From contig NZ_JAUTBF010000001.1 in assembly GCF_030818955.1 (NCBI RefSeq), positions 2,294,001 to 2,358,000 of the forward strand: a stretch of DNA of 64,000 nt, given 5' to 3'. Shown here piece by piece: positions 2,032 to 5,983 of the stretch (its first letter is position 1; each line of letters begins with the position of its first letter). The position numbers and the translations under genes are program-made. Source of the stretch: Microbacterium trichothecenolyticum. Its GTDB lineage: Bacteria; Actinomycetota; Actinomycetes; Actinomycetales; Microbacteriaceae. A model generated the notes under the pieces. It made no database searches. It saw only the letters and a program-made list of their open reading frames with translations, and was not told the DNA's origin.

Positions 2032-2254
2032 GGGTCGTCCCATTGTGTCGCGACACTCCGCATCGGTCGAGCCCGGCCCCGGCGCGGCTGCTTCGCTGGC
2101 CTCCGCCGCACGTGTCACGACCTGACGCTGCGGCCGAGTTCACCGGCCGCGGCGAGAGCGGACCTGACGCTCGACCTCTCGGCGACGAGCAGCGGCAGCA
2201 CCCGAGAAGATCGTCGGTGTAGACGACGAAAAACGCATGCCCGTTGTCATTTCC

Positions 2255-2270
2255 TCGAACATGTGTTCGA
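2255..2270. promoter_or_regulatory. LexA (SOS) box, perfect palindrome
   Basis: TCGAACATGTGTTCGA matches the actinobacterial LexA consensus TCGAAC-N4-GTTCGA at every fixed position. It ends 8 nt before the ATG of the radical SAM gene. A possible -35 (TTGTCA, 2244-2249) and a weak -10 (TCGACT, 2267-2272) flank it with a 17-bp spacer, so bound LexA would block this promoter. The weak -10 also ends 6 nt before the ATG, which suggests a leaderless mRNA. Confidence 0.9.
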
Positions 2271-2278
2271 CTGTTCAC

Positions 2279-3382
2279 ATGAGATGGCAGGGTCAGCAGC
2301 TGGGCGTCGACGACTCCGGTGCGCTCCCGGGCATGGAACGCATAGACGGTCTGGTGCGGTCGGTGACCACACCGGAGTTCGCCGGCATGACGTTCCACGA
2401 GGTGCAGTGCAAGAGTGCCCTCAATCGCGTGCCCGGCGCCTCGGCCATGCCCTTCGACTGGACGGTGAATCCGTATCGCGGCTGCACACACCAGTGCGTG
2501 TACTGCTTCGCCCGTAAGACGCACGAGTACCTCGACCTCGACTACGGCTCCGACTTCGATTCGCAGATCGTGGTCAAGGTGAACGTCGCCGACGTGCTGC
2601 GCACCGAGTTACGGCGCGGCTCATGGACGCGGGAGCCCGTGATGCTCGGCACGAACACCGACCCGTACCAGCGCGCCGAAGGACGCTACCGGCTCATGCC
2701 CGACATCGTCGGCGCGCTGACCGAGACCGGCACACCGTTCTCGATCCTCACCAAGGGCACGCTCCTGCGGCGCGACCTCCCCCTGCTCACCGACGCGGCG
2801 CAGCAGGTGAAGGTGTCGTTGGCGATGTCGATCGCCGTCTTCGACGATGCCCTTCAGCACTCGATCGAACCCGGCACACCCGGCGCCGACGCACGACTGG
2901 CGACCGTGCGCGCCGCGACAGCGGCGGGCTTCCGCGTCACCGTCTTCCTCATGCCGATCCTGCCGCACCTGACTGACTCGATCGCCGCCCTCGACGACGC
3001 CCTCGCCCGCATTCGCGCCGCGGGCGCTGCCCGCGTGGTCTACGGCGCGCTGCACCTGCGCCCCGGCGCGAAGCAGTGGTTCTGGCAGTGGCTGGAGCGC
3101 GAGCATCCGCATCTCGTGTCGTCGTATCGCGGGCTGTACCCGGGGGTCTCGGTCTCGGCACCGAAGGCGTACCGCACGTGGCTCGCAAAGCGCATGCGAC
3201 CGCTGCTGCGGATGCACCGCCTCGACGGGTGGGACGAAGACGACCACCCCCGCGGGCGCCCGCAGCCCGGGCTCGCCGCCCGCACCTCGCCACCGAGCAG
3301 CCTCGGCCCCGTGCGCGGCACCGGGGCCTCGGCATCCGCCCGCCCGCGCGTGGCGCCGGCGAGCGAGCCGACGCTGTTCTGA
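2279..3382 (+). CDS. Rv2578c-family radical SAM protein (spore photoproduct lyase-like)
   Basis: The 367-residue protein carries the radical SAM motif CTHQCVYC inside NPYRGCTHQCVYCFARKTHE (about residues 60-80), where three Cys bind the [4Fe-4S] cluster. The opening MRWQGQQLG and the following LVRSVTTPEF / FHEVQCKSALNRVPG match the Rv2578c family of actinobacteria, whose substrate is unknown but which resembles DNA-photoproduct lyases. The start was chosen by this N-terminus; no ribosome-binding site is visible. A perfect LexA box directly upstream points to induction by DNA damage. The C-terminal 60 residues are low-complexity. An upstream ATG at 2237 would place the LexA box inside the gene and is less likely. 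Confidence 0.88.
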   Translation: MRWQGQQLGVDDSGALPGMERIDGLVRSVTTPEFAGMTFHEVQCKSALNRVPGASAMPFDWTVNPYRGCTHQCVYCFARKTHEYLDLDYGSDFDSQIVVKVNVADVLRTELRRGSWTREPVMLGTNTDPYQRAEGRYRLMPDIVGALTETGTPFSILTKGTLLRRDLPLLTDAAQQVKVSLAMSIAVFDDALQHSIEPGTPGADARLATVRAATAAGFRVTVFLMPILPHLTDSIAALDDALARIRAAGAARVVYGALHLRPGAKQWFWQWLEREHPHLVSSYRGLYPGVSVSAPKAYRTWLAKRMRPLLRMHRLDGWDEDDHPRGRPQPGLAARTSPPSSLGPVRGTGASASARPRVAPASEPTLF

Positions 3383-3431: not shown

Positions 3432-5642
3432 TTACGAGGTGACGTCGGCGAGCTGACGACCCGACAGCTCTTCGATCAGGTCGTCACCGAGCTGCGCGGG
3501 CTCGAACGGCGCCTCGATCTCGGCACGATCGAGCAGCTCGGTCATGCGGCGCTGACGCTGACGCGTGATGAGCGTCACCACCGTGCCGCTGCGGCCCGCG
3601 CGACCGGTGCGGCCGGAGCGGTGCAGGTACGTCTTGTACTCATCGGGGGCGTCGGCCTGGATGACCAGGTCGATGTCGTCGACGTGGATGCCGCGAGCGG
3701 CGACGTCGGTGGCGACGAGCACGTTGACGCGGCCCGAGGTGAGCTTCTCGAGGTTGCGTGTGCGCTTCTGCTGGTTGAGGTCACCGTGCAGCGCGACGGC
3801 TGCGATACCGGCGTCGTCGAACTGCTCGGCGAGCATCTCGGCGTACGCGCGCGTGCGGGCGAAGACGAGGGTCTTACCGGGGCGGTCGACGAGCGAGCCG
3901 AGGATCTCGGCCTTGTCGCGGTGGTCGATCACGAGCACACGGTGGTCGATGGTCCCGGAGTCCTGATCTTCACCGGCCACCTCGTAGACGGCGGGCTCGA
4001 CGAGGAACTCGTCGACGAGCGCCGCGACCTCCCGGTCGAGGGTCGCCGAGAACAGCAGCTTCTGGCTGCCGTCGGCGGTCGCGCGCAGGATGCGCTGCAC
4101 GGGCTCGAGGAAGCCGAGCTCGCACATGTGGTCGGCCTCGTCGAGCACGGCCACCTGCACCTCGGACAGGTCGAGCTTGCCCTGGTTCAGCAGGTCTTCG
4201 ATGCGGCCGGGCGTGCCGATGACGATGTCGACGCCCTTCTTCAGCGCACCGACCTGACGCGCCTGGGGCACGCCACCGTAGATCTGCGTGGTGAACAGTC
4301 CGACGCTGCGCGCGATCACCTGGACGGTGCGGTCGATCTGCAGCGCCAGCTCGCGGGTGGGGGCGAGGATCAGCGCCTTGGGGGCGCGGCCGAACTCCCG
4401 GCGCTTACCGGCCTGCGCGCGCAGGATGCTCTCGACGAGCGGGGCGCCGAAGGCGATGGTCTTGCCCGAGCCGGTACGCCCGCGAGCGAGCACGTCACGG
4501 CCGTCGAGGATGGGCTTCACCGTCGCGGCCTGGATCGGGAAGGGGCTCGCCGCACCGAGACCGGCGAGGGCGCGCACGATGTTGTCGCCCAGGCCCAGTT
4601 CGGCGAAGCCGGCACCGGTCGCGGTCGCGGCGTCGACGGCCTCTGCCTGCAGGCGCTCGTGCACGACGTCGACGCGCTGCTCGTGCTCGGCCGAACGCTT
4701 CGGGGTGGCGGTCCAATCGCTGCGGCTCGGGCCGTCGGTGCGGCGCGGGCGGTCGTCGAAGGAACGGGCGGGGCGCTCGGGGCGGTCGAACGAACGGGCG
4801 GGGCGATCCTCGAACGAGCGGGCCGGGCGGTCGCCGGCGTCGCGACGAGGACGCTCGTCACGGTCGAACGAACGCGCCGGGCGGTCGCTGCGATCGAACG
4901 AGCGAGCCGGACGGTCGTCACGGGCCGGACGGTCGTCGAACGAGCGGCGAGGGCGCTCGTCACGCGCGGGACGCTCGTCCCGACGGTCGAACGACCGAGC
5001 CGGACGCTCACCGGCGTCGCGACGCGGACGCTCGTCGCGATCGAACGAACGCGTCGGACGGTCGTCGCGAGCAGGACGCTCGTCCCGACGGTCGAACGAC
5101 CGAGCCGGACGCTCACCGGCGTCGCGACGCGGACGCTCGTCGCGGAACGAAGGGCGGGCGTCGCCGAACGAACGGCGGTTGTCGCGGTCCACGCGCTCCC
5201 CGCGGGGGGCACGGTCGTCGCGCGCGGGTCGGTCGTTCCGGTCGAACGATCGCGCGGGGCGGTCGCTGCGGTCGAAGGAACGCACCGGACGGTCGTCGAA
5301 GGAACGGCGGGGGCGCTCGTCGAACGAGCGGGCGCCGCGGTCGTCACGGCGGCCGGCCGTGGCATCCCGATCCGAGCGACCGAAACGATCGTCACGGGCC
5401 GAGGTGCGGATACTGCGGGCCTCGTCGCGGCCCGCGCGGTCCGACGCGCTCCAGCGGCGCTTGTCGGGGGCGGCCTCCGCCTCGGGACGGTACCCGCGGT
5501 GGTTGGGGCTCTTGCTGCCGGGCTTGGCCGGGGCTTCGCCGCCGGGGCGGCGCTTGCGGTCCTGGAACGAGGTCTTCGCGCCGTAGCGCGGCTCGAAGTT
5601 CTTGGCGGCGCGGCCGCCGGCGGGCTTCTTGTTCTTGGGCAT
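3432..5642 (-). CDS. DEAD-box ATP-dependent RNA helicase with long Arg/Asp repeat region
   Basis: The 736-residue protein unwinds RNA, probably in cold adaptation or ribosome assembly. The helicase core starts near residue 345 and has all motifs: Q-motif region, GRTGSGKT (Walker A), PTRELALQ, TPGR, DEAD, SAT, VLVATDVAARGIHV and HRSGRTGRAG. Unusually, the N-terminal third (about residues 103-302) is a charged repeat built on RPARSFDR, DDRPARSFD and RDERPRRDAGE, probably disordered and RNA-binding. Most family members carry such tails at the C-terminus. ATG 5642 (MPKNKKPAGG) is preceded by AGAAGGA. Repeats make other frames artificially open here. Confidence 0.93.
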   Translation of the reverse strand: MPKNKKPAGGRAAKNFEPRYGAKTSFQDRKRRPGGEAPAKPGSKSPNHRGYRPEAEAAPDKRRWSASDRAGRDEARSIRTSARDDRFGRSDRDATAGRRDDRGARSFDERPRRSFDDRPVRSFDRSDRPARSFDRNDRPARDDRAPRGERVDRDNRRSFGDARPSFRDERPRRDAGERPARSFDRRDERPARDDRPTRSFDRDERPRRDAGERPARSFDRRDERPARDERPRRSFDDRPARDDRPARSFDRSDRPARSFDRDERPRRDAGDRPARSFEDRPARSFDRPERPARSFDDRPRRTDGPSRSDWTATPKRSAEHEQRVDVVHERLQAEAVDAATATGAGFAELGLGDNIVRALAGLGAASPFPIQAATVKPILDGRDVLARGRTGSGKTIAFGAPLVESILRAQAGKRREFGRAPKALILAPTRELALQIDRTVQVIARSVGLFTTQIYGGVPQARQVGALKKGVDIVIGTPGRIEDLLNQGKLDLSEVQVAVLDEADHMCELGFLEPVQRILRATADGSQKLLFSATLDREVAALVDEFLVEPAVYEVAGEDQDSGTIDHRVLVIDHRDKAEILGSLVDRPGKTLVFARTRAYAEMLAEQFDDAGIAAVALHGDLNQQKRTRNLEKLTSGRVNVLVATDVAARGIHVDDIDLVIQADAPDEYKTYLHRSGRTGRAGRSGTVVTLITRQRQRRMTELLDRAEIEAPFEPAQLGDDLIEELSGRQLADVTS
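4737..5336 (-). repeat. degenerate coding repeats (RPARSFDR units) inside the helicase gene
   Basis: About 600 bp encode many copies of an 8-20 residue unit, RPARSFDR / RDERPARDDRP / RDERPRRDAGER, with almost identical DNA in some units (compare 4981-5033 with 5071-5133). This makes the region a likely hot spot for length change and assembly collapse. Confidence 0.85.
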
Positions 5643-5983
5643 GACGATGTCCTTCTGGGTTCTGTTTCGCGCGAGACAGCAGCACCGCACAGCGGTGCGA
5701 AACCCGGACTATCGTCGGCCGGGGGCCATTCACTGATGATGGTCGAGGCCGCGATCGCGTCCTGTCCATCGGCCCCTTGGACTCACAAACCCATCCGCGC
5801 ATCACACGCGGTGTCCAGAGCCGACCGCCCCACGCTACAGGTGGCGCCTGGGAATGGCATCCATATCGCGCACTGTTCCCCTCGAGAACAGGTGATCGGC
5901 CGAGAACAGGCCCGTATCGGCGTGGGGCAGGCCTGTCCTCACCGAATCCCCTGTCCTCGCCGAACACCCACCAAGATGGACGC
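5643..5983. other. 341-bp divergent intergenic region with helicase 5' UTR
   Basis: No gene is supported. On the minus strand a -10-like GATAGT (5713-5708) would place the helicase transcript start near 5701. The leader then contains the hairpin GCACCGC-TGT-GCGGTGC (5698-5682, read on the minus strand) before the ribosome-binding site. Nearer the plus-strand gene, CTGTTC (5873-5878) and GAACAG (5886-5891) form a short inverted repeat, with another GAGAACAGG at 5912-5920. Their role is unknown. Confidence 0.45.

Follow-up and report, generated by a model that had tools for sequence, protein, structure and literature searches.

In Microbacterium trichothecenolyticum, a gene encoding a radical S-adenosylmethionine (SAM) protein of the Rv2578c family begins directly behind an exact LexA (SOS) box, and it appears reasonably probable that the product is an SOS-induced repair enzyme, tethered to the sliding clamp, for a lesion other than the spore photoproduct. 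The gene lies in the 64,000-nucleotide stretch analysed here (positions 2,294,001 to 2,358,000 of contig NZ_JAUTBF010000001.1; hereafter the window, to whose first letter all coordinates refer). In our analysis this proposal is based on the box, its position, its conservation, the lack of a Shine-Dalgarno motif, the predicted fold and a motif in the C-terminal tail.

In the mechanism that we propose, LexA would occupy the box in the undamaged cell, which overlaps the -10 element and ends eight bases before the start codon, and would silence a promoter whose transcript begins at or beside the ATG, i.e., is leaderless. Upon DNA damage, RecA would become active, LexA would be cleaved and the enzyme would be made. 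Its barrel (about residues 25-315) would then bind a [4Fe-4S] cluster and SAM, yield the 5'-deoxyadenosyl radical and attack a DNA lesion, while a disordered tail with a QLxLF-type end, weakened to EPTLF in the window protein, would dock the enzyme on the DnaN sliding clamp and thereby direct its action to replication forks or gaps. Among these steps, the leaderless start, clamp binding, repair chemistry and substrate are those that we infer.

The gene, its operator and its start

A pattern search of the window found the 16-mer TCGAACATGTGTTCGA exactly at 2255-2270 on the forward strand, eight bases before an ATG at 2279-2281. The open reading frame that follows (367 amino acids) matches NF038135, the model of the Rv2578c family radical SAM protein, over residues 1-315 (494.3 bits against a cut-off of 430; 1.2e-148) and is also matched by PF04055. 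An earlier reading of this stretch (the original prediction), which had placed a perfect LexA box before an Rv2578c-family radical SAM gene, is thereby confirmed. The elements discussed below, all on the forward strand, are as follows.

2244..2249, +: candidate -35 element TTGTCA, 17 nucleotides (nt) before the candidate -10 hexamer
2255..2270, +: LexA (SOS) box TCGAACATGTGTTCGA, exact match, position conserved in orthologues
2267..2272, +: candidate -10 hexamer TCGACT, which shares bases with the right half-box, proposed on a comparative basis
2279..3382, +: gene of the Rv2578c-family radical SAM protein, 367 amino acids, with a probable leaderless start at ATG 2279 (NF038135, PF04055, invariant M1/R2/W3)
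2483..2506, +: codons of C69-x3-C73-x2-C76, the [4Fe-4S] cluster motif, invariant in orthologues and wider relatives
3236..3379, +: codons of the predicted disordered C-terminal tail, residues 320-367 (AlphaFold2 model)
3365..3379, +: codons of the terminal EPTLF, at the place of the clamp-binding-like motif (L366/F367 conservation and tail statistics)

When up to three mismatches to TCGAACATGTGTTCGA are allowed, the window holds, besides the reverse strand of the box itself, one further place at 4120 (three mismatches), with 0.56 expected by chance; a looser two-mismatch pattern is uninformative within the window (90 found vs. 74 expected). The 3.735-Mb genome holds the 14-bp core pattern CGAACRNNNGTTCG at 10 distinct places and a reversed control pattern at none. 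The full TCGAAC-N4-GTTCGA palindrome (16 bp, read with its flanks) is found at only two of these ten, namely at this gene and 198 nt before recA, and a box with one mismatch lies 21 nt ahead of the ruvA start. Given the recA and ruvA boxes in the same genome, the box of the radical SAM gene is of the kind carried by the organism's own SOS genes.

M1, R2 and W3 are invariant in an alignment of 60 orthologous sequences. Two in-frame ATGs further upstream, at 2237 and at 2261 (inside the box), were rejected as starts because the orthologues do not keep them: MRW comes first, and other bases than ATG occur in the N4 of their boxes. Longer entries such as P0004 would be explained by a gene caller that picks an ATG inside the box.

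Conservation of the box in Actinomycetes

The box was sought in four sets of genomes, which overlap in part because some named loci come from genomes that also stand in another set (e.g., L138 and G615, or L188 and G165, the latter pair matched by sequence). The closest named homologues belong to Microbacterium, and the family, genus and class of the sets were assigned from such homologues. The family set comprised 100 genomes drawn evenly from Microbacteriaceae, 69 of which carry the gene above the cut-off; 68 of these have upstream sequence, since G066 ends at a contig edge and was left out of the counts. The class counts leave out matches below the cut-off (G113, G115, G154, G192 with its locus L237, and a second match in G186) as well as G079 and G000, which are already in the family set; the named loci leave out L141, L144, L147, L160 and L205, whose match does not begin at residue 1; and the genus set leaves out G631, again below the cut-off. 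In G173, G186 and G217 the match begins at residue 14-28, and the start was placed by extrapolation.

The scan of Microbacteriaceae orthologues had been set beforehand as a test by the original prediction, and the box is present there: in 64/68 promoters it lies 6-12 nt ahead of the start and departs from the core at two positions at most, and in 55/68 at one at most. The remaining four comprise two without a box (G004, G087), one with a decayed box in the same place (G001) and one that differs (G037), in which a perfect box lies 40 nt upstream and a Shine-Dalgarno-like motif stands between box and start. With at most one mismatch, the class sample has the box at the short gap in 33/48 cases, a count that rises to 38/48 within 80 nt because the box of the Streptomyces-like group lies about 30 nt upstream. 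The same limit is kept at the short gap by 60/75 named loci, among them loci of Mycobacterium, Rhodococcus, Nocardia, Gordonia, Geodermatophilus, Pseudonocardia, Cellulomonas, Demequina, Brevibacterium and Arthrobacter. Control positions at least 120 nt upstream came within one mismatch in 1/17,755 (family), 1/14,098 and 2/19,345 cases, and within two in 27, 20 and 26, respectively.

Within Microbacterium itself, 75 promoters show no core mismatch in 4 cases, at most one in 23, at most two in 53 and at most three in 71. The right half-box, which overlaps the promoter, is kept (74/75 with at most one mismatch), and it is the left half that decays; the window palindrome is thus better than most in Microbacterium, to an unusual degree, whereas among Microbacteriaceae it is typical. 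The suggestion that the link is conserved across actinobacteria stands for many Actinomycetes, Mycobacterium included; against it, most boxes in Microbacterium itself are imperfect. Many Microbacterium species with a decayed main box have TTCGAA or a TCGAACAT-like half site about 45-60 nt before the start (seen by eye, uncounted), which is possibly a second weak LexA site.

Promoter layout and a probable leaderless start

The layout of operator and promoter appears to be fixed. A box at a gap of 6-12 nt is present in 175/191 rows, and in these the end of the box together with the next two bases forms a -10-like hexamer, which reads TCGAAT (97 rows), TCGACT (29 rows) or TCTAAT (23 rows), the rest being scattered. 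The hexamer is 5-7 nt from the start in 174/175 rows, and a TTG -35 with a spacer of 17 or 18 is found in 121/135 orthologue rows whose -10 begins with TCG.

No Shine-Dalgarno-like motif precedes the window ATG at 2279, and none was found at any short-gap promoter (0/65 in the family, 0/35 in the class, 0/73 among named loci and 0/67 in the genus), which makes a leaderless start probable. Among long-gap rows, such a motif is present in 10/13 of the class and 1/1 of the family. The simplest reading is that the transcript probably begins at ATG 2279; the original prediction, which held that the box covers the presumed promoter and leaves no room for a ribosome-binding site, is thus backed by comparison of orthologous promoters. 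An operator over a probably leaderless promoter would be a compact arrangement, open to experiment, by which SOS repression does without a 5' leader.

A trade-off between operator and promoter, in which a -10 reading TCT, less similar to the LexA box and closer to a promoter element, goes with a lost TTG -35, was considered and is not claimed. A TTG -35 occurs in 9/36 rows with TCT vs. the 121/135 with TCG (Fisher p 6.5e-14, ignoring relatedness); once relatedness is considered, nine independent pairs give a median p of 0.125, which is not significant, and Microbacterium mostly retains TTG with TCT or TCC hexamers, contrary to such a trade-off.

Published SOS regulons and related families

LexA control of this type of gene has already been published, and the original prediction of regulation by LexA and DNA damage was therefore right without being new. 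Damage induction and LexA binding have been shown by others for probable relatives (PMC9380542, PMC8151990). In S. venezuelae, vnz_31145 is induced 19.97-fold with mitomycin C and has a LexA chromatin immunoprecipitation peak (PMC9380542), and a RecA-dependent 'DNA repair photolyase' is listed for M. tuberculosis (PMC8151990); we read both as Rv2578c orthologues. An analysis covering, among others, Leifsonia xyli places 'a radical SAM protein' in the core SOS regulon of Gram-positive bacteria (PMC7739468), and COG1533 SplB appears in several regulons (PMC8565304). No paper in the literature searched contains both 'Rv2578c' and 'LexA'.

Like the window gene, vnz_31145 is an SOS-controlled radical SAM gene, and its product is said to resemble thymine-lesion repair enzymes (PMC9380542). 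It is probably an orthologue, because the published 14-mer lies in the promoter region of an NF038135-type gene of the Streptomyces-like genome G239, although that promoter differs in having a leader in which a GAGGAGG motif occurs. In G239 (locus L244), the published 14-mer lies at -38 to -25, and its stated position of -61 was not reproduced. A better box, GGGAACAGGTGTTCTA, adjoins it. GGGAACAGGTGTTCTA resembles a site kept in other Streptomyces-like genomes, and the published assignment may be one site off. The 14-mer followed by TGTTCT within 2-32 nt was found in 0/392 Streptomyces-like genomes. The bare 14-mer occurs in 3/15 chosen genomes, at four places, of which the one in G239 is at the radical SAM promoter on the opposite strand; a quick reading in one direction found no such gene start at the other three.

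A second family, PA0069 (NF033668, Pseudomonadota), shares the cluster motif and a TDPYQ-type motif and has an upstream LexA-type box and a canonical C-terminal QLSLF/QLSLL. It differs from the window protein, which scores 207.8 bits against a cut-off of 360 and has about 30% identity. Upstream of PA0069-type relatives on alphaproteobacterial plasmids, GTTC-N7-GTTC, which we take to be the LexA box of Alphaproteobacteria, is present at 7/8 loci picked from longer lists and, with one mismatch, at the eighth (Pseudorhodobacter). The Aeromonas locus has CTGTATATATAAACAG upstream, and the Legionella locus has neither GTTC-N7-GTTC nor a CTGTATATATAAACAG-type box there. CTGT-N8-ACAG has been named for Betaproteobacteria (PMC6595937). 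It seems from these promoters that SOS control is kept although the LexA box itself differs between groups.

The C-terminal tail and possible clamp binding

Residues 320-367 are predicted to be disordered (predicted local distance difference test <50 in the AlphaFold2 model); nonetheless, L366 and F367 are present in at least 90% of the 60 aligned orthologues and are among the best-kept residues. A peptide of the type Q-x-x-L/M-F/L is the bacterial sliding-clamp-binding consensus of DnaN partners, and W-ending variants also occur among clamp binders. The place of the window's EPTLF is taken in relatives by QPTLF, QLSLF or QLSLL.

Tail counts leave out L208 (its frame ends at 58 amino acids) and G217 (no complete frame), and shuffled tails (500 shuffles in the class sample) served as controls. 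Among the 47 complete proteins of the class sample, Q-x-x-[LM]-hydrophobic occurs in the last nine residues of 38 (shuffle maximum 2), and the final pair is [LM][FL] in 31 (maximum 4); the corresponding counts for named proteins are 40/74 (maximum 2) and 70/74 (maximum 5). Two further lists, each the best 120 of 8000 scored and thus made up of close relatives rather than even samples, gave different forms of the motif. The closest homologues of the window protein end in [LM][FL] in 117/120 cases (maximum 4) and have the Q-form in 3/120. PA0069-type proteins have Q-x-x-L-F/L within the last 12 residues in 113/120 cases (shuffle mean 2.8, maximum 8), mostly as QLSLF (53) and QLSLL (28), and six of the other seven tails have QLSLW, QLNLW, QLDMW or QLSFW. 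The motif is missing at the end of shorter or more distant proteins from Paenibacillus, Runella, Selenomonas, Nostoc and Haladaptatus, and partial forms are seen in Monoglobus (FEQLGF) and Gemmatirosa (QLSLGI). At the level of the family, a motif of the clamp-binding type thus ends the protein far more often than it does shuffled tails.

It could be argued that the protein is a LexA-controlled repair enzyme similar to spore photoproduct lyase (SPL) whose terminal LF has another role, for example as a degradation signal or in docking to another repair protein, since the canonical Q is gone in Microbacterium and Rhodococcus while LF stays. However, the Q-containing tails of 113 of the 120 listed PA0069-type proteins and of 38 of the 47 class proteins have the form of clamp binders, for which W-ending variants are known as well, and we consider another role unlikely.

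The tail makes clamp tethering, the reading that we prefer, accessible to a simple genetic or biochemical test by truncation of five residues, and it directs attention to the replication clamp and to stalled forks or gaps. The motif was absent from the original prediction. As far as the literature was searched (subscription journals being mostly uncovered), no paper was found that notes a clamp-like tail or joins bacterial SplB-like radical SAM proteins with clamp binding. Within the same limits, a clamp-binding-like tail across the Rv2578c and PA0069 families is new, as are the fixed and probably leaderless layout, the missing SPL cysteine (see below) and the joint reading as a different, clamp-tethered enzyme.

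An independent link between an SplB-like enzyme and a sliding clamp comes from archaea, in a number of which an SplB-like gene neighbours nreB; the C-terminus of Nre proteins has a PIP motif that binds PCNA (PMC4929162). In archaea, then, enzyme and clamp motif are on different proteins, whereas the clamp-like motif described here is on the SplB-like enzyme itself. We suggest tentatively, as a possibility that falls somewhat short of an even chance, that the Rv2578c and PA0069 families form one widespread SOS-induced pathway, in which a clamp-riding enzyme reverses or opens a cross-link-type lesion other than the spore photoproduct. If true, bacteria would have in this pathway their counterpart of the archaeal NreB-SplB pairs, clamp motif and enzyme being united in a single protein. 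SplB-like radical SAM proteins recur in SOS regulons (PMC7739468, PMC8565304), yet to our knowledge neither their lesion nor their site of action has been established in non-sporing bacteria; the same question is described as open for archaea (PMC4929162).

Fold and catalytic residues

The cluster motif C69-x3-C73-x2-C76 is invariant in 60/60 orthologues and 18/18 wider relatives. Among solved structures, the one closest to the predicted fold is SPL (SplB, PDB 4fhc and mutants), with about 15% identity, followed by lipoyl synthase and others, and the window protein shares an EPGT-type motif with SPL. Cys140 of SPL is the hydrogen donor. The window protein has cysteines at positions 44, 69, 73 and 76 only; with none after residue 76, it has no counterpart of Cys140, and because this donor is missing, the lesion is probably not the spore photoproduct. 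Outside the cluster, the best-filled cysteine columns of the 60 orthologues are position 220 (35/60, not in the window protein) and position 44 (18/60). The two enzymes also differ in the extra disordered tail with its clamp-like motif and in regulation, SPL being under sporulation control and the window gene probably under SOS control.

A true SPL equivalent, with the mechanism of SPL and UV thymine lesions as its target for reversal, as the fold, the cluster and the EPGT-type motif might suggest, is very unlikely, given the low identity, the lack of any cysteine downstream of the cluster and the fact that Microbacterium forms no spores. Still less is to be said for a non-repair enzyme, e.g., one that modifies RNA or protein and is merely damage-induced, since although the radical SAM fold serves many substrates, as lipoyl synthase and others in the fold list illustrate, LexA-type boxes of three forms in two phyla and a clamp-like tail point to DNA.

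Points that weigh against the proposed clamp-tethered SOS enzyme

Several observations weigh against the proposal of an SOS-induced, clamp-tethered enzyme for a different lesion. The box is weaker in the window's own genus, where its left half is often decayed (at most one mismatch in 23/75). The proposed -10 lacks an A at position 2, and a scan with a generic sigma-70 consensus calls no promoter at this place. The contrast between leadered and leaderless promoters rests on 14 class and family rows, which are mostly Streptomyces-like, and the long-gap rows among named loci (0/2) and in the genus (0/6) have no Shine-Dalgarno-like motif; we read these eight as rows in which a second upstream site outscored the short-gap one, and they are not proven to be leadered. 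In the window tail, E replaces the canonical Q, which is retained in 3 of the 120 listed close homologues, and Rhodococcus tails likewise lack it. A 2026 paper warns that the family likeness to B. subtilis SplB is weak, with 17.6% identity and a root-mean-square deviation >4 A (PMC12924846).

Finally, the genome's sole match to lexA (G000:C1:1310973-1311542; locus L261, about 1384-1560) appears to be frameshifted inside the DNA-binding domain, the reading frame shifting between '...HGYPP' and 'SMREIG...'. In 22/24 genomes of the genus sample, the match to the LexA model already begins at residue 2 or 3, and the other exception is a fragment. The frameshift may be a real mutation or an error of sequencing or assembly; if it is real, repression may be absent and the gene permanently on in this isolate.

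Insertions and neighbouring gene

In the homologue P0013, an intein (PF14890) is inserted at the third cluster cysteine (residue 76, window about 2504). Other listed homologues also carry PF14890, and, judged by match length, an insert is present in 21/76 genes of the genus sample. Prophage Samy integrates into the Streptomyces orthologue SAM40697_5543 (PMC12924846). The gene is therefore targeted by both inteins and a phage integrase; phage records gave two distant matches. The convergent neighbour (window 3432-5690, - strand) encodes a DEAD-box RNA helicase whose N-terminal region is long and repetitive, with many copies of ARSFD and RDDR.
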